Shown: positions 45,354 to 48,922 of the stretch, piece after piece
How the letters are laid out: each line of letters starts with the position of its first letter
Position numbering within the stretch: the stretch's first letter is position 1
Source: Winogradskyella echinorum
GTDB lineage: Bacteria > Bacteroidota > Bacteroidia > Flavobacteriales > Flavobacteriaceae
Length of the DNA stretch: 64,000 nt
Assembly: GCF_014297365.1 (NCBI RefSeq)
Contig: NZ_JACOQD010000001.1
Location: 930,001-994,000, forward strand
Direction: 5' to 3'
The notes under the pieces: model-generated
What the model was told of the DNA's origin: nothing
The model's input: the letters and a program-made list of their open reading frames with translations, nothing else
The model's database searches: none
Position numbers and translations under genes: made by a program

Positions 45354-45938
45354 ATGGAAAATAATTTACATAACATCCATTTGTTTAGAGCCATTGAAGC
45401 CTATCCATGGGAATTAGAAAGAGCAGTTGAGGCATTAAATTACGCTTTGTCTTACGACCCAGAAAATGTAAAAGCCTTGCATTTAATGGCAAAAGTGCAC
45501 TACGAGCAATTGGGTGATAATGAAACGGCAAAAAAGTACTTTGAAACAGCTTTAGCGAGTCGATTGAATATACCAGATGTGTATCCGGATTACATACGGT
45601 TATTAATTAATAATCACGATTTTAAAGAAGCGCAAAGATTAATTGATTTTGCCAAAACCGTAAAAGGAATTGATAGAGCAAGTATCGCTTTAACTCAAGG
45701 ACAGTTATACGAAAGTATCGCTAAATATGAAGATGCTGAAAAAGTCCTTAAAGACGCAAAGCAATTAGCCTTAAATGATGATTTTATAAGTTTTGTTGAT
45801 ACTGTTTTATCTCGAGTTAAAAAGAAGAGAAAGATTCAAGCCAATGAAAATAGAATCATAGAAAATCAGGTTAAAAAAGAAGCTGAAACTGAAGTTAAAA
45901 ACAGTTGGTTTCAGAATCGGTTAAATAATTTATTGTAA
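45354..45938 (+). CDS. TPR-repeat protein upstream of the tRNA array
   Basis: 194 residues, helical, cytoplasmic. TPR-like units are visible: ELERAVEALNYALSYDPENV and VKALHLMAKVHYEQLGDNET then AKKYFETALASRLNIPDVY; DYIRLLINNHDFKEAQRLI; and IALTQGQLYESIAKYEDAEK. The C-terminal about 45 residues are highly charged (RVKKKRKIQANE), able to bind nucleic acid, and end in WFQNRLNNLL. It lies between a structured RNA unit and the tRNA-like array, 124 bases before the first tRNA, so it may be part of the same system. No catalytic motif. Confidence 0.75.
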   Translation: MENNLHNIHLFRAIEAYPWELERAVEALNYALSYDPENVKALHLMAKVHYEQLGDNETAKKYFETALASRLNIPDVYPDYIRLLINNHDFKEAQRLIDFAKTVKGIDRASIALTQGQLYESIAKYEDAEKVLKDAKQLALNDDFISFVDTVLSRVKKKRKIQANENRIIENQVKKEAETEVKNSWFQNRLNNLL

Positions 45939-45965
45939 TAAAAAGAAAGGAGAATTTATATAAAA

Positions 45966-46041
45966 ACTGTCACATTGAGCGTAGTCGAAATGTATTAAAA
46001 ACAAAAAAATGCATTTTCTCGACTTCGCTCGAAATGACAGT
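45966..46041. repeat. Palindromic intergenic repeat (REP-like)
   Basis: An imperfect inverted repeat: ACTGTCACATTGAGCGTAGT at the left and the complement of ACTGTCATTTCGAGCGAAGT at the right. TGTCATTTCGAGCGAAGTCGAG-type units are common interspersed palindromes in Bacteroidota genomes. It lies just before the tRNA-like array. Confidence 0.75.
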
Positions 46042-46061
46042 GAATAGATGACCTTTTTAAT

Positions 46062-46144
46062 GGGAATTCGTCAGCGTTGGAGAGCTGAGACAGACTGTAA
46101 ATCTGTTACCTCTGGTTGAGTAAGTTCGAATCTTTCAATTCCCA
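46062..46144 (+). tRNA. tRNA-Tyr (GTA), array member 1
   Basis: Acceptor GGGAATT/AATTCCC, D-stem TCAGC/GCTGA, anticodon arm ACAGA-CTGTAAA-TCTGT, long variable arm as expected for bacterial Tyr, and T-loop TTCGAAT. The T-stem has one T-T mismatch (GTAAG/CTTTC). No encoded CCA. Confidence 0.85.
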
Positions 46145-46149
46145 CAAAT

Positions 46150-46222
46150 AGTATCGTAGCTCAATGGCTAGAGTGCTCGGTTGTCTCCCGAGAAGTTGCG
46201 AGTTCGAATCTCGTCGGTACTG
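46150..46222 (+). tRNA. tRNA-Asp (GTC), array member 2
   Basis: Acceptor AGTATCG/CGGTACT (one T-G), anticodon arm CTCGG-TTGTCTC-CCGAG, T-arm GCGAG-TTCGAAT-CTCGT, and discriminator G as in normal tRNA-Asp. The first base pair is A-T instead of the usual G-C. Spacer of 5 bases from member 1. Confidence 0.85.
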
Positions 46223-46228
46223 CGAAAT

Positions 46229-46300
46229 GCTCCGTTGGTCAAATGGTTAAGACGCCTGACTTTCTATCAGGAATTAAGGGTTCAATTCCCTTACGGAGTA
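46229..46300 (+). tRNA. tRNA-Glu (TTC), array member 3
   Basis: Acceptor GCTCCGT/ACGGAGT (first pair G-T), anticodon arm CCTGA-CTTTCTA-TCAGG, T-arm AAGGG-TTCAATT-CCCTT. Spacer of 6 bases. No encoded CCA. Confidence 0.85.
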
Positions 46301-46305
46301 CAAAA

Positions 46306-46377
46306 TGAGGTATAGCTCAGTGGAAGAGCGTCACGCTTACATCGTGAATGTCATAGGTTCGATTCCTATTATCTCAA
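46306..46377 (+). tRNA. tRNA-Val (TAC), array member 4
   Basis: Acceptor TGAGGTA/TATCTCA, anticodon arm TCACG-CTTACAT-CGTGA, T-arm ATAGG-TTCGATT-CCTAT. It starts with T, unusual for bacterial tRNA. Spacer of 5 bases. Confidence 0.85.
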
Positions 46378-46382
46378 CTAAT

Positions 46383-46455
46383 TGAGGTGTAGCTTAATTG
46401 TTAAAGCACCGAGCTTTTAACTCGGGTGATTTAGGTTCAAGTCCTAATACCTCAA
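46383..46455 (+). tRNA. tRNA-Lys (TTT), array member 5
   Basis: Acceptor TGAGGTG/TACCTCA, anticodon arm CCGAG-CTTTTAA-CTCGG, T-arm TTAGG-TTCAAGT-CCTAA. The acceptor stem is almost the same as that of member 4, suggesting duplication or shared selection. Spacer of 5 bases. Confidence 0.85.
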
Positions 46456-46461
46456 CAATTT

Positions 46462-46534
46462 GCAGGAATGGCGAAACGGCAAACGCACTCGACTTAGAAT
46501 CGAGAAACTGGGAGTTCGAATCTCTCTTCCTGTA
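46462..46534 (+). tRNA. tRNA-Leu-like (TAG) with short variable loop, array member 6
   Basis: Acceptor GCAGGAA/TTCCTGT, anticodon arm CTCGA-CTTAGAA-TCGAG, T-arm GGGAG-TTCGAAT-CTCTC. The variable region is only AAACT. Normal bacterial Leu tRNAs are class II with a long variable arm, so this is not an ordinary Leu tRNA. Confidence 0.8.
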
Positions 46535-46538
46535 CAAT

Positions 46539-46612
46539 GCTCCACTAGCCCAATTGGGAGAGGCAACGGTCTTAAACGCCGAAAAGTCCAAGTTCGAATC
46601 TTGGGTGGAGTA
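46539..46612 (+). tRNA. tRNA-Leu-like (TAA) with short variable loop, array member 7
   Basis: Acceptor GCTCCAC/GTGGAGT, anticodon arm CGGT-CTTAAAC-GCCG (four pairs, outer A-A mismatch), T-arm CCAAG-TTCGAAT-CTTGG. Again the variable region is about five bases, against the class II rule for Leu. Confidence 0.78.
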
Positions 46613-46617
46613 CGAAT

Positions 46618-46689
46618 AAGCTTATAGTGTAATGGATAGCATTCAAAGCTACGGACTTTGAGGTATGAGTTCAAATCTTATTAAGCTTA
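46618..46689 (+). tRNA. tRNA-Arg (ACG), array member 8
   Basis: Acceptor AAGCTTA/TAAGCTT, a perfect but A/T-rich stem; anticodon arm CAAAG-CTACGGA-CTTTG; T-arm ATGAG-TTCAAAT-CTTAT (one G-T). D-stem of three pairs. It starts with A. Confidence 0.82.
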
Positions 46690-46695
46690 CAATAA

Positions 46696-46766
46696 TAACC
46701 TGTGGTGTAATGGTAACACTCAAGATTTTGATTCTTGTATTATAGGTTCGAATCCTATCAGGTTAT
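46696..46766 (+). tRNA. tRNA-Gln (TTG), array member 9
   Basis: Acceptor TAACCTG/CAGGTTA, anticodon arm CAAGA-TTTTGAT-TCTTG, T-arm ATAGG-TTCGAAT-CCTAT, discriminator T. Starts with T. Spacer of 6 bases. Confidence 0.83.
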
Positions 46767-46769
46767 CTG

Positions 46770-46892
46770 GTGTCTATAGTGTAATGGCTAGCACAAGAGG
46801 TATATCCTCTAGGATCAAGTTCGAAATGCAAAGCATTCATGAGTACTTATTTATTTAAGTAGAAATGAAACGAACTAATCTTAATAGACACT
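46770..46892 (+). tRNA. tRNA-like with 53-base insert in the T-loop, array member 10
   Basis: Acceptor GTGTCTA (46770-46776) pairs with TAGACAC (46885-46891), with a normal D-arm. The anticodon stem AGAGG/CCTCT leaves a 5-base loop; with four pairs the loop is GTATATC and the anticodon ATA. The T-stem TCAAG/CTTAA is interrupted after TTCGAA by 53 bases that contain ATGC/GCAT and TACTTA/TAAGTA hairpins and a CGAACT that can pair with AGTTCG of the T-arm. A disrupted gene, or an RNA processed by removal of the insert. Confidence 0.6.
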
Positions 46893-46898
46893 AAAACC

Positions 46899-46971
46899 GG
46901 AACAGTAGCAAAGTTGGTCAATGCACCAGATTGAAGATCTGGCGATATAGGTTCGAATCCTGTCTGTTCCA
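46899..46971 (+). tRNA. tRNA-Phe (GAA), array member 11
   Basis: Acceptor GGAACAG/CTGTTCC, anticodon arm CCAGA-TTGAAGA-TCTGG, T-arm ATAGG-TTCGAAT-CCTGT (one T-G). The most regular cloverleaf of the array. No encoded CCA. Confidence 0.87.
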
Positions 46972-46996
46972 CAAATGAAATAGTTCGTTGAAAATA

Positions 46997-47015
46997 TTTC
47001 TGCCTACGCAGGAAA
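46997..47015. repeat. Short palindrome, fragment of an interspersed repeat
   Basis: TTTCTGCCTACGCAGGAAA folds on itself (TTTC-TGC/GCA-GGAAA). It is of the TTCCTGCG..GGCAGGAA type common in Flavobacteriia. The 46972-47133 stretch around it has no complete tRNA; it holds only weak tRNA-like scraps. Confidence 0.55.
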
Positions 47016-47133
47016 TGATATCAAGCTGGTCTTGTTGGGTGTTTCGGTATAGCACTATTGTATAATTCGTTGCAGAGATGCATTATGGTTTTATATACAA
47101 CTAGACTTGAAGGTTTTGACTATTAACCAAAAA

Positions 47134-47228
47134 ATAGTCACCAGTTCTATGTACGTGGGTTCGAATCCCACCTTCCCCTCAAAAGATAATAAAAAAATGG
47201 GGAAGTAGCTTAGCGGTGAAGCAATAGA
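47134..47228 (+). other. tRNA halves in reversed order (3' half, linker, 5' half)
   Basis: The 3' half comes first: anticodon-stem strand TCTAT (47146-47150), GTAC, T-arm GTGGG-TTCGAAT-CCCAC, acceptor strand CTTCCCC (47172-47178). After a 20-base A-rich linker comes the 5' half: acceptor strand GGGGAAG (47199-47205), TA, D-arm GCTT/AAGC, and anticodon-stem strand ATAGA (47224-47228). GGGGAAG pairs 7/7 with CTTCCCC and ATAGA 5/5 with TCTAT, as in a circularly permuted tRNA. CACCAGT before the first strand could supply a CCA (Trp) anticodon. The alternative is a rearranged remnant of tandem copies. Confidence 0.55.
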
Positions 47229-47229
47229 T

Positions 47230-47264
47230 CGTAGCTGTCGTCGGTTCGAATCCGATCTCTAGCT
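47230..47264 (+). other. tRNA 3' half fused to the preceding 5' half
   Basis: CGTAG (47230-47234), CTGTC, T-arm GTCGG-TTCGAAT-CCGAT, acceptor strand CTCTAGC (47257-47263). It follows the previous 5' half with only one T between the anticodon-stem strands, so no anticodon loop exists here. Its strands pair instead with the next 5' half: CGTAG with CTACG (47308-47312) 5/5, and CTCTAGC with GCTATTG (47280-47286) 5/7. Confidence 0.5.
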
Positions 47265-47279
47265 TGGATAATATCCATG

Positions 47280-47381
47280 GCTATTGTAGCTCAGTTAGGT
47301 TAGAGCACTACGCTTTTAACGTAGGTTATGGACTTATAATCCATCAACACCAAAGCTTATCATCTTGTAAAACTGATAGCC
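47280..47381 (+). tRNA. tRNA-Lys-like (TTT) with expanded T-arm region
   Basis: Acceptor GCTATTG (47280-47286) with TGATAGC (47374-47380, two G-T pairs), D-stem GCTC/GAGC, anticodon arm CTACG-CTTTTAA-CGTAG. In place of a normal 17-base T-arm there are about 44 bases with an ATGGA-CTTATAA-TCCAT hairpin and no TTC loop. Its 5' half can also pair with the 3' half upstream, so linear and permuted foldings compete. Confidence 0.45.
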
Positions 47382-47442
47382 AAGCAGTCCGTCACACTGC
47401 TCAATAAAAATGACAAAAATGGTGGATTGTGAATTGGCTTTA

Positions 47443-47492
47443 GATTCCTGTTGAAGCCTGTCTTGAGCTAAGACGAAAGGCAGGAATGACAG
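47443..47492. repeat. Palindromic intergenic repeat (REP-like)
   Basis: ATTCCTG (47444-47450) pairs with CAGGAAT (47481-47487); inside, GTCTT-GAGCT-AAGAC forms a second stem. It ends in TGACAG like the repeat before the array, so related palindromes bracket the tRNA region. Between it and the last tRNA-like gene an AGCAGT/ACTGCT hairpin lies near 47384-47402. Confidence 0.65.
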
Positions 47493-47499
47493 TAAAAGA

Positions 47500-47700
47500 G
47501 CAATTTTAGATGTTCCAGAACTACTGATTTGTAATCTTAAAAGTAGTTACTGCTTTGATATAAAGTTTGAAAGACACATCGATAAGATACCTTTTTCAGC
47601 AAAATGTCATTGCACTAATTGTGGATGGTTTTACTATGAGTATTTCCGTACGGAAGAGATGATTTGCAATCTGCTATTTTTTAAAAAGAAAATAGAATAA
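47500..47700 (+). pseudogene. Cys-rich small reading frame without a clear start (truncated or alternative start)
   Basis: An in-frame stretch of about 66 codons closed by TAA at 47700. It encodes VPELLICNLKSSYCFDIKFE, and later a zinc-knuckle-like KCHCTNCGWFYYEYFRTEEM, so it looks like real protein. There is no ATG, GTG or TTG at the front; an ATT at 47503 is the only plausible start before the conserved-looking part. The palindromic repeat directly upstream may have replaced the true N-terminus. It lies between the array and the slipin gene, 124 bases before it. Confidence 0.4.
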
Positions 47701-47708
47701 AAAATATA

Positions 47709-47790
47709 CTTCAAAAATTATTGAGCTCGTCAGTGATTTTTGAAGCTGGTAATCCGTCCGTTACAAGAATTACCAATCCGCCTTAATTGG
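47709..47790 (+). promoter_or_regulatory. Structured leader before the slipin gene
   Basis: CTTCAAAAAT (47709-47718) pairs with ATTTTTGAAG (47736-47745). Then GGTAAT (47748-47753) pairs with ATTACC (47769-47774), competing with CCAAT/ATTGG (47773-47777 with 47786-47790). Two alternating hairpins just before the gene suggest a folded mRNA leader; no T run, so not a plain terminator. Confidence 0.45.
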
Positions 47791-47824
47791 CAAACACTAA
47801 TGTTTAATTTTAAAAACAAAAACA

Positions 47825-48922
47825 ATGTTACGAGTAAGAATTAATGCAGGAAAAGTAGGTTTAGTATTCAAAAGAGGAGATTACGTGAAGGTAATTACTC
47901 AAGGATTACACTGGCTAGGGCTCAATAAGCGTGTTTTAACGTATGATTTGAGTGCAATTTTCACAGCACCAGTAGCATTAGAAATCTTATTGAAAGATGA
48001 GGTTTTAGCTAATATGCTAGATGTTATTGAGGTAAAGGACGGAGAAATCGTTTTTCTATACGAAAAAGGAAATTTTAAATCTATTCTAACCGCTGATCGT
48101 TATGTGTACTGGAAAGGACTAATTGAACGCGATTATGTGCGTGTAGATTTAAGTAAAATTTACATTACAGAAAAATTAGACAAATCGCTATTTAGCAAAT
48201 TAGAAGTGAATAAATACATCAGAACATTTGAAGTCGCAACTTACGAAAAAGCAGTGCTTTTAGTAGATGATGTATATACCAAAACTTTAGAAGGTGGTAC
48301 ATACCGTTTCTGGAGAAATGACACTTCTATTAAAATTGCAAAAGCAGATTTACGTCAGTTACAATTAGAAATTGCAGGACAAGAATTGTTAACTAAAGAT
48401 AAGGCAGCTATCCGTATCAACTTTTACACACAGTACAAAGTTACAGATGTAGAAAAAGCGCTTTTAGATAACAAGGATTACGAAAAGCAATTATACATCA
48501 CTATGCAATTAGTTTTGCGTGCTTATGTTGGTGCATACACTTTAGATGAATTGTTAGAACGTAAAGAAAATATTGCTGAGGCCGTATTTGAAGACGTAAA
48601 GGCAAGTGCAACTAAATTAGGTGTAACCGTACTAAACTGCGGTATAAGAGATGTGATTTTAACTGGTGAAATGAAAGATATCATGAACCAAGTTTTAGTC
48701 GCTCAAAAGAAAGCACAAGCTAATGTTATTATGAGACGTGAGGAAACAGCTTCTACACGTAGCTTGCTAAATACGGCAAAGTTGATGGAAGAGAATGACA
48801 TGCTGTACAAGCTAAAGGAGATGGAATATGTGGAAAAAATAGCTGAGAAAATTGGCGAGATTACAGTCTCAGGTAATGGAAATATGGTAACACAATTAAA
48901 GGAGATTTTCTCTGGAAAATAA
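47825..48922 (+). CDS. Slipin/SPFH (Band-7) protein with three N-terminal beta repeats
   Basis: 365 residues. Residues about 170-310 are the SPFH/Band-7 domain (LQLEIAGQELLTKDKAAIRI, FYTQYKVTDVEKAL, ELLERKENIAEAVFEDVKAS, LGVTVLNCGIRDVILTGEMK), followed by a coiled coil (VLVAQKKAQANVIMRREETA). There is no N-terminal membrane helix, unlike most slipins. Instead three similar beta units occur near residues 5-35 (KVGLVFKRGDYVKVITQGLH), 68-97 (EIVFLYEKGNFKSILTADRY) and 137-166 (AVLLVDDVYTKTLEGGTYRF). SPFH proteins of this kind accompany RNA-repair operons and a tRNA-like RNA in other bacteria. It follows the tRNA-like array and has its own terminator. Confidence 0.88.
   Translation: MLRVRINAGKVGLVFKRGDYVKVITQGLHWLGLNKRVLTYDLSAIFTAPVALEILLKDEVLANMLDVIEVKDGEIVFLYEKGNFKSILTADRYVYWKGLIERDYVRVDLSKIYITEKLDKSLFSKLEVNKYIRTFEVATYEKAVLLVDDVYTKTLEGGTYRFWRNDTSIKIAKADLRQLQLEIAGQELLTKDKAAIRINFYTQYKVTDVEKALLDNKDYEKQLYITMQLVLRAYVGAYTLDELLERKENIAEAVFEDVKASATKLGVTVLNCGIRDVILTGEMKDIMNQVLVAQKKAQANVIMRREETASTRSLLNTAKLMEENDMLYKLKEMEYVEKIAEKIGEITVSGNGNMVTQLKEIFSGK

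Follow-up and report, generated by a model that had tools for sequence, protein, structure and literature searches.

A tRNA array, a tandem permuted tRNA-like RNA and a slipin gene form a candidate RNA-damage tolerance unit in Winogradskyella echinorum

Why should a bacterium carry a dense, redundant array of tRNA genes immediately upstream of a slipin gene, with a further stretch of tRNA-like sequence between the two? The question is raised by a locus of Winogradskyella echinorum (assembly GCF_014297365.1, contig NZ_JACOQD010000001.1; genome 3.78 Mb), lying in a 64,000-nucleotide stretch (positions 930,001-994,000 of the forward strand) that is referred to here as the window and whose own numbering is used throughout. 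On its + strand a TPR gene, the tRNA array, the tRNA-like RNA stretch and the slipin gene follow one another, all co-directional. We suggest that they make up an RNA-damage tolerance operon, in which cleavage-resistant stand-in tRNAs would be combined with a particle of slipin and tRNA-mimic RNA, and we give this reading a probability of about 0.58. An initial annotation had described the array and the slipin gene and had proposed that they supply surplus, decoy or scaffold RNA when tRNAs are cleaved; its observation is confirmed and its interpretation partly supported.

A conserved RNA of tandem permuted modules

Between the array and the slipin gene, at 46973-47824, the list of open reading frames (ORFs) shows none of at least 60 residues. 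This stretch had been read as tRNA halves followed by a Lys-like gene; the tRNA-like pieces and the Lys-like gene were borne out, the separate halves were not, and the stretch is, as judged from alignment and pairing, one conserved RNA of tandem permuted modules. Its parts are:

47018-47440, + strand: conserved noncoding RNA core, with a tail after the modules, both ends approximate (alignment of 27 loci)
47039-47055, + strand: D-arm-like hairpin within the core (by eye)
47112-47139, + strand: H-type pseudoknot within the core (variants across loci)
47149-47228, + strand: permuted tRNA-like module 1 (model R1, 58.4 bits; pairing; covariation of the module family)
47234-47312, + strand: permuted tRNA-like module 2 (model R1, 44.5 bits)
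47280-47352, + strand: third, Lys-like tRNA-like unit with D-arm, anticodon arm and T-arm-like hairpin (39.2 bits, above the Rfam tRNA cut-off)

The leaders of 27 slipin loci of the genus can be aligned over approximately 700-800 nucleotides (nt) (alignment A1). Within each module the order of the tRNA elements is permuted, running from the T-arm through the 3' acceptor strand, a loop and the 5' acceptor strand to the D-arm. The acceptor strands of module 1 in the window are CTTCCCC (3') and GGGGAAG (5'), and those of module 2 form an imperfect stem with four of six pairs; full acceptor pairing is present in 25 of the 27 sequences for module 1 and in 20 of the 27 for module 2.

Covariation was measured on 31 of the 54 modules, mostly short-looped, a set that excludes seven imperfect copies of module 2 (those of the window, L057, L058, L060, L062, L069 and L078). 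In this set 93.3% of cells are paired, compared with 32-47% in slid controls, 143 cells are changed on both sides against 51.7 in shuffles, and all seven acceptor pairs show two-sided changes. Three of the five covariation measures lie above all 500 shuffles; the other two do not, namely the number of pairs with two-sided changes (13 against 12.4) and of further pair types (31 against 30.9). When all 54 modules of the genus were recounted, with the partner strand picked by best pairing, paired cells numbered 270/270 in the T-stem, 309/324 in the acceptor stem and 186/216 in the D-stem. Acceptor strands form on average 5.9 and 5.5 of six pairs with partners from their own locus, falling to 4.6 and 3.9 when strands are swapped between loci. 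The pseudoknot of the core varies across loci and was scored as present in 27/27, a figure that is no significance test as many alternatives were tried per sequence, and the picks in L057, L060 and L061 are other pairings.

The window and 80 named loci were searched with R1, a model of one module. These loci are the top-ranking 80 among at least 502 relatives of the slipin and share members with the genus sample (counts out of 81 below include the window); the best 300 of the 488 R1 matches were used. At a threshold of E ≤ 8.1e-9, 79 of the 80 loci have a module on the strand of the slipin gene, 371-881 nt before its start, the sole locus without one having just 492 nt of upstream sequence; at least two modules are present in 70 loci and three in nine. 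Among the matches listed, four lie in the window: both modules, and two junctions between successive tRNAs of the array.

The Val-Lys junction (46347-46413) fits the permuted-module model at 50.3 bits, and the 3' acceptor strand of an array tRNA is able to pair with the 5' strand of the tRNA that follows it. This match suggests a possible route by which the permuted modules arose.

The closest known shape is that of the Y RNA YrlA (RF02553), in which a T-arm, a closed acceptor hairpin and a D-arm likewise occur in permuted order. Two adjacent YrlA matches were found in locus L027 (E 3.3e-8 and 9e-7 in a 231-nt search), both over the tRNA-like part of YrlA. The YrlA cut-off of 69 bits was not reached in any of 26 genus loci, the best match scoring 42.2 bits; in the window a full-length but weak match (47213-47335, 20.4 bits, E 0.16) overlaps module 2. 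The best matches span positions 19-90 of the model only, and some weaker ones are full length; YrlA carries its Ro-binding stem at its ends. Further differences are that the modules here stand in tandem and that their partner is a slipin, with no Ro found in the genome. YrlA belongs to the rsr-yrlBA-rtcBA RNA-repair operon, and RtcB is similarly found near the slipin in relatives, as described below. The tandem RNA is thus shaped like a Y-RNA effector module and may act alike, although by score it falls outside YrlA.

The position of the modules bears on a different explanation, that of a cis-regulatory leader, in which the tandem RNA would sense tRNA or the state of tRNA processing on behalf of the slipin mRNA and the array would be separate, co-transcribed cargo. 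Both the constant placement of modules upstream of the slipin start and the further conserved stretches that run from them down to its start codon in the 27-locus alignment would suit such a leader. The module, however, has the shape of YrlA, an RNA that acts apart from an mRNA, and we consider the leader unlikely, though it survives better than the other alternatives.

A tRNA array of separate lineage with altered anticodon loops

Eleven tRNA-like genes had been reported in the array. ARAGORN identifies ten tRNAs, all on the + strand at 46062-46972, and the eleventh is disrupted; the first nine are separated by only 3-5 nt. Except where stated, each was found by both ARAGORN and Rfam:

46062-46145, + strand: tRNA-Tyr(GUA), by ARAGORN, absent from the Rfam gathering list; 63% identity to the genome's own housekeeping tRNA-Tyr
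46150-46223, + strand: tRNA-Asp(GUC), anticodon loop UUGUCUC with U37
46229-46301, + strand: tRNA-Glu(UUC), anticodon loop CUUUCUA with U37
46306-46378, + strand: tRNA-Val(UAC)
46383-46456, + strand: tRNA-Lys(UUU), anticodon loop identical to the housekeeping loop
46462-46535, + strand: tRNA-Leu(UAG), without a long variable arm
46539-46613, + strand: tRNA-Leu(UAA), without a long variable arm
46618-46690, + strand: tRNA-Arg(ACG)
46696-46767, + strand: tRNA-Gln(UUG)
46770-46892, + strand: disrupted tRNA gene between Gln and Phe (read by eye)
46899-46972, + strand: tRNA-Phe(GAA)

The description of these genes as unlike housekeeping tRNAs holds in part. Nine of the ten pass the Rfam tRNA cut-off with normal scores of 51.7-71.4 bits. 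The unusual features that had been pointed out are nevertheless present: the acceptors of Asp, Val, Lys, Arg and Gln begin with A or T (but so, with T, does that of the housekeeping Gln), and the two Leu tRNAs, at 74-75 nt, have a short form that recurs in other arrays, where 31/32 Leu-UAG and 23/23 Leu-UAA genes are 74-76 nt long. Of 42 tRNA matches that score above the cut-off in a whole-genome Rfam search, ten lie inside the island, and all ten array anticodons also have a gene or genes elsewhere in the genome; the array is therefore dispensable for basal decoding.

We compared the arrays of 41 loci with at least five tRNAs, leaving out L083-L086 and the loci with fewer. In all ten isotypes the array tRNA of the window is on average more similar to arrays outside the genus (67-87% identity) than it is to the housekeeping copy of its own genome (53-68%). 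Of 838 gene pairs whose order could be compared, 780 agree; spacers have a median length of 5 nt. By these comparisons the array tRNAs are a lineage of their own with a conserved order.

The anticodon loop differs from the genome's own housekeeping loop in eight of the ten array tRNAs of the window. Across the named loci with at least five tRNAs, U37 is found in 37/38 Asp and 34/34 Glu array genes, where the window's housekeeping genes have A37, and the array loops of Asp, Glu, Gln, Leu-UAG, Arg-ACG, Pro, His and Phe are mostly unlike the window's housekeeping loops. In phages, changes in tRNA anticodon loops have been interpreted as evasion of anticodon nucleases (PMC10264068).

These loops also bear on the decoy proposal, according to which the array and the tandem RNA would soak up anticodon nucleases and so spare the housekeeping tRNAs. 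The tandem RNA keeps a tRNA-like shape while the letters of its anticodon arms vary (by eye), as might be expected of bait, and the mostly unchanged loops of Tyr, Lys, Asn, Trp, Met and Ser-UGA mean that these array tRNAs may serve as bait too. The altered loops of the eight isotypes listed above would be unexpected in bait and better suit replacements that escape cleavage, and the order and spacing of the array match a processed tRNA operon. In its pure form the decoy idea is unsupported, and as a general account we find it doubtful, a step behind the leader.

Distribution and genomic company of the unit

A strong slipin match is present in 27 of 60 Winogradskyella genomes (in two pieces in G032 and with an in-frame stop in G002) and in 20 of 395 genomes of a phylum sample; the count leaves aside weak SPFH matches (L025, L052-L054, L080-L082). 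Arrays accompanied by this slipin and the TPR gene are widespread among relatives, and the co-directional run of TPR gene, array, tandem RNA and slipin gene recurs across many genera. ARAGORN finds at least one tRNA upstream of the slipin in 66/80 loci, at least three in 49/80 and at least eight in 35/80, so that slipin homologues do lie near arrays elsewhere; downstream, at least one tRNA occurs in 8/80 loci and three in none. Array DNA is matched in 14 of the 27 slipin-bearing Winogradskyella genomes against 1 of the 33 others. The first gene of the unit is also shared:

45354-45938, + strand: TPR protein of 194 residues (TPR Pfam matches)

A TPR homologue is present in 55/81 slipin loci, upstream in 54, and, of the 28 loci combining a TPR gene with at least three tRNAs, 14 have the end of that gene 14-183 nt before the first tRNA. 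Between the TPR gene and the array of the window there is a palindrome of the CTGTCA...TGACAG type (45965-46045, read by eye).

The link to RNA damage that had been proposed is supported by this genomic company. The RtcB ligase is encoded in 40/81 loci (in one of the 40 only as a fragment of less than 300 residues) and release factor H (PrfH) in 24/81, the two together in 22; a distant Citrobacter slipin adjoins rtcR. Counts of RtcB, PrfH and the small ORF described next refer to sequence clusters, from each of which one member was compared with known families. A WYL-domain protein is encoded on the opposite strand in 15/81 loci. The small ORF, of approximately 106 residues and without a Pfam match, is likewise found in 15/81 loci (for example L084, 5899-6207); its place is upstream of the tandem RNA and frequently behind the array, and a full GOLLD hit is found in 0/15 of its loci.

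In the Winogradskyella genome G001 the same chromosomal site carries TPR, nine array tRNAs and RtcB, and neither a slipin match nor a strong module was found. RtcB there occupies the place of the slipin and tandem RNA, downstream of the array (L199, 4255-5640). Going by gene content, G001 represents a naturally occurring exchange and links the array with RNA repair.

More distant slipins, from records of a plasmid collection, have 34-41% identity to that of the window. Weaker upstream modules were found for those of Subdoligranulum (E 7e-7), Photobacterium (2.7e-6) and one Burkholderia (1.4e-5), and doubtful ones for a second Burkholderia (0.02) and for Citrobacter (0.01); Photobacterium has two tRNA-like units in normal, unpermuted order (by eye). 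DNA resembling the Citrobacter slipin and its leader is present in 1624 of 5426 complete Escherichia coli genomes, which makes part of the question testable in a genetic model. In two E. coli records (among L198, L197 and L192) a nucleotidyltransferase gene follows the slipin, with lysC and pgi near.

Phages are known for GOLLD RNA and for dense tRNA islands (PMC12286853, PMC6582537), and the patchy distribution of the slipin, together with the GOLLD matches, could point to the remnant of a phage or mobile element, a tRNA island (with GOLLD in some species) stranded beside the slipin with no host role. GOLLD (RF02032) gave no match in the window or its genome, the genome search being without a positive control. 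Of the 26 other genus loci, 10 have a GOLLD match ahead of the modules, in every case below cut-off (the best at 149.9 against 150 bits). With a local profile it is found in 12/80 named loci, among which are four genomes already in the genus set and a 98-nt piece (L138); this profile was built from eight loci which it then recovered, and a thirteenth hit below 1e-5 (L095) was dropped as covering the tRNA-like part only. Viral contigs yielded no slipin relative and 50,697 phage records gave only one partial hit of 25%, so that a phage origin of the slipin is unsupported in either. The conservation of array order across genera and the concentration of array DNA in slipin-bearing genomes also argue against a stranded island, and we regard it as still less probable than the decoy.

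An R1 module also occurs inside GOLLD itself, near the start of the conserved 3' domain, at up to 60.8 bits (L085, 780-848; L083, 5561-5628; L087, 5787-5855; and other GOLLD loci). Matches to Flavo-1 RNA lie just past the slipin gene in L040 (1338-1421) and L038 (1391-1459).

The slipin protein

The last gene of the unit is:

47825-48922, + strand: slipin of 365 residues, with three tandem beta repeats, an SPFH domain and a C-terminal helix (Band_7, E 2.8e-29; AlphaFold2 models)

The Band_7 domain is also found in all 47 aligned members of the family. In the AlphaFold2 model (predicted local distance difference test, pLDDT, 79.9) three tandem four-strand repeats are followed by the SPFH domain and a long C-terminal helix. 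The model has no N-terminal helix, which agrees with the initial annotation of a slipin lacking a membrane helix, on the strength of a predicted structure with no dedicated membrane predictor run. PADLOC returned no match for the five proteins submitted.

Chains of stomatin, prohibitin, erlin and HflK match the model from residue 107 or later, and among the 50 fold matches listed only chains of the major vault protein (MVP) align from residue 3-4 on. MVP is composed of tandem MVP repeats, an SPFH shoulder and a cap helix, and the slipin model likewise passes from tandem beta repeats to an SPFH fold and a helix; the full model aligns with MVP chain 9z4w_3 at Z 12.5 over 249 residues, with a root-mean-square deviation of 11.4. 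The slipin repeats differ in that they fit single SPFH subdomains better than MVP repeats. Modelled alone (pLDDT 93.3), they superpose singly on the SPFH subdomains of erlin, prohibitin, stomatin and HflK with Z up to 4.4 and weakly on the vault 3gnf (Z 2.4), and gave no Foldseek match under 0.001. Sequence searches gave no similarity to vaults and no Vault Pfam among the families shown, and the fold match of the N-terminal part alone was weak; kinship with vaults is putative. Because of its family, the slipin is likely to form a ring or cage.

Proposed function

Since the unit is conserved and in relatives is often accompanied by RNA-repair enzymes, it probably keeps protein synthesis going after tRNAs have been cut. 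The mechanism that we infer begins with co-transcription of the TPR gene, array, tandem RNA and slipin gene, induced by translation stress. tRNA-processing enzymes would release the array tRNAs which, once charged, would replace housekeeping tRNAs cut by anticodon nucleases; altered residues 32, 37 and 38 would make many of them poor nuclease targets that still decode. Slipin subunits would build a ring or cage holding the tandem tRNA-mimic RNA as scaffold or bait, so that the earlier proposal of a scaffold RNA would fit the tandem RNA beside the slipin better than the array itself. The ring or cage would gather repair machinery, RtcB ligase and PrfH, where these are present, and in the window's genome, with no RtcB found, replacement would stand in for repair.

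Several observations weigh against this proposal. Array and housekeeping loops are identical in Tyr 30/31, Lys 31/31, Asn 13/14, Trp 11/13, Ser-UGA 13/14 and Met 6/7, and the reference for all loop comparisons was the housekeeping tRNAs of the window's genome alone. Charging by leucyl-tRNA synthetase of the Leu array tRNAs, which have no long variable arm, is putative. The absence of RtcB from the window, which had been remarked on, extends to the whole genome, where it was not found (RtcR was not searched there), and PrfH matches in this genome were all below cut-off. RtcB lies in the flank at 14/43 loci with at least five tRNAs against 24/31 with fewer than three, a count that leaves out six intermediate loci and in which long arrays push RtcB outside the fetched flank. 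There is no upstream ARAGORN tRNA in 14/80 loci (three have approximately 1 kb or less upstream), and the array is therefore not essential to the slipin unit; conversely, G001 is, by its gene content, an array without the slipin. Ro (TROVE, PF05731) had no match in the window's genome, in a search whose control matched 1/14.

The remaining alternative, that the array boosts tRNAs for common codons, was dropped as very improbable: the array tRNAs are real and well-scoring, but isotype presence does not correlate with amino-acid usage in the 17 ORFs of the window used for the comparison (Spearman -0.17, p 0.48), and Ala, Gly, Thr and Val are common in those ORFs yet rare in arrays. The commonest array isotypes are Asp, Gln, Glu, Leu, Cys, Tyr, Lys, Phe and His, and Met and Ile are also among the rare ones; Cys, for instance, is present in 32/41 arrays and Ala in 1/41.

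The nearest functional precedent for a tolerance operon is, by analogy, the TrcR regulon of Anabaena (PMC10272220). There the repressor TrcR holds down an operon of 26 tRNAs together with rtcB and a slipin gene, and translation stress raises all three; the trn array lies on a megaplasmid and rtcB on the chromosome. The points of likeness are the redundancy of the tRNA array, which is seen in the window also, and its grouping with rtcB and a slipin under a single repressor. A tandem permuted RNA is not known from that system, and membership of its slipin in the present subfamily is putative. The tRNA arrays of phages, plasmids and mycobacteria are similarly dense, some with GOLLD RNA, and the loop changes of phage tRNAs are proposed to evade nucleases (PMC6582537, PMC12286853, PMC10264068, PMC12803027). 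The present arrays differ in their cross-genus order, in their co-directional TPR and slipin genes and in the RNA-repair genes of relatives.

Literature searches for slipin with tRNA-like RNA and RtcB found nothing, those for slipin with tRNA array and for rtcR with slipin found only the Anabaena paper, and that for SPFH with tRNA and RNA repair matched only reference entries. Novelty is claimed within these searches, outside which lies the 2016 survey of Burroughs and Aravind. That survey reportedly noted an SPFH gene adjoining a tRNA-like RNA in RNA-repair neighbourhoods; to our knowledge it describes no tRNA array, GOLLD or permuted tandem.

The locus places dense, phage-like tRNA arrays beside host RNA-repair genes, with the replacement of cut tRNAs as the proposed and testable reason, and reveals a family of tandem permuted tRNA mimics linked to slipin. 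It unites a Y-like RNA, GOLLD and slipin, all of unclear function. A more elaborate picture, which we think unlikely though not more so than any of the alternatives above, is a vault-like particle, in which a cage of soluble tandem-SPFH slipin would surround a domain-swapped tRNA-mimic chain that senses cut tRNAs, joined in some species by a GOLLD RNA cage. The linked array would provide cleavage-proof tRNAs, damage would be by-passed and not repaired, and the modules would have come from tandem tRNA genes via pairing of neighbouring acceptors.

The disrupted array gene

The acceptor strands of the disrupted gene pair at approximately 46770-46776 and 46885-46891 (by eye), and an insert of approximately 50 nt lies in its T-loop at about 46823-46875, with GAAATGCNNNGCATTCA at 46823-46839. 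The corresponding position in the array of locus L055 is taken by an uninterrupted Tyr-AUA-like gene. Inserts of 50-60 nt starting with GAAATGCNNNGCATTCA break array tRNAs in the window, L057, L060, L061, L062, L071, L079, L091 and others, and the pattern is found in 24/198 loci, some of them overlapping. From its sequence and placement the insert looks like a small mobile element or intron. It sits in the T-loop in the window and in L057, and in L076 and L078 a similar insert lies instead in the anticodon loop (all by eye).

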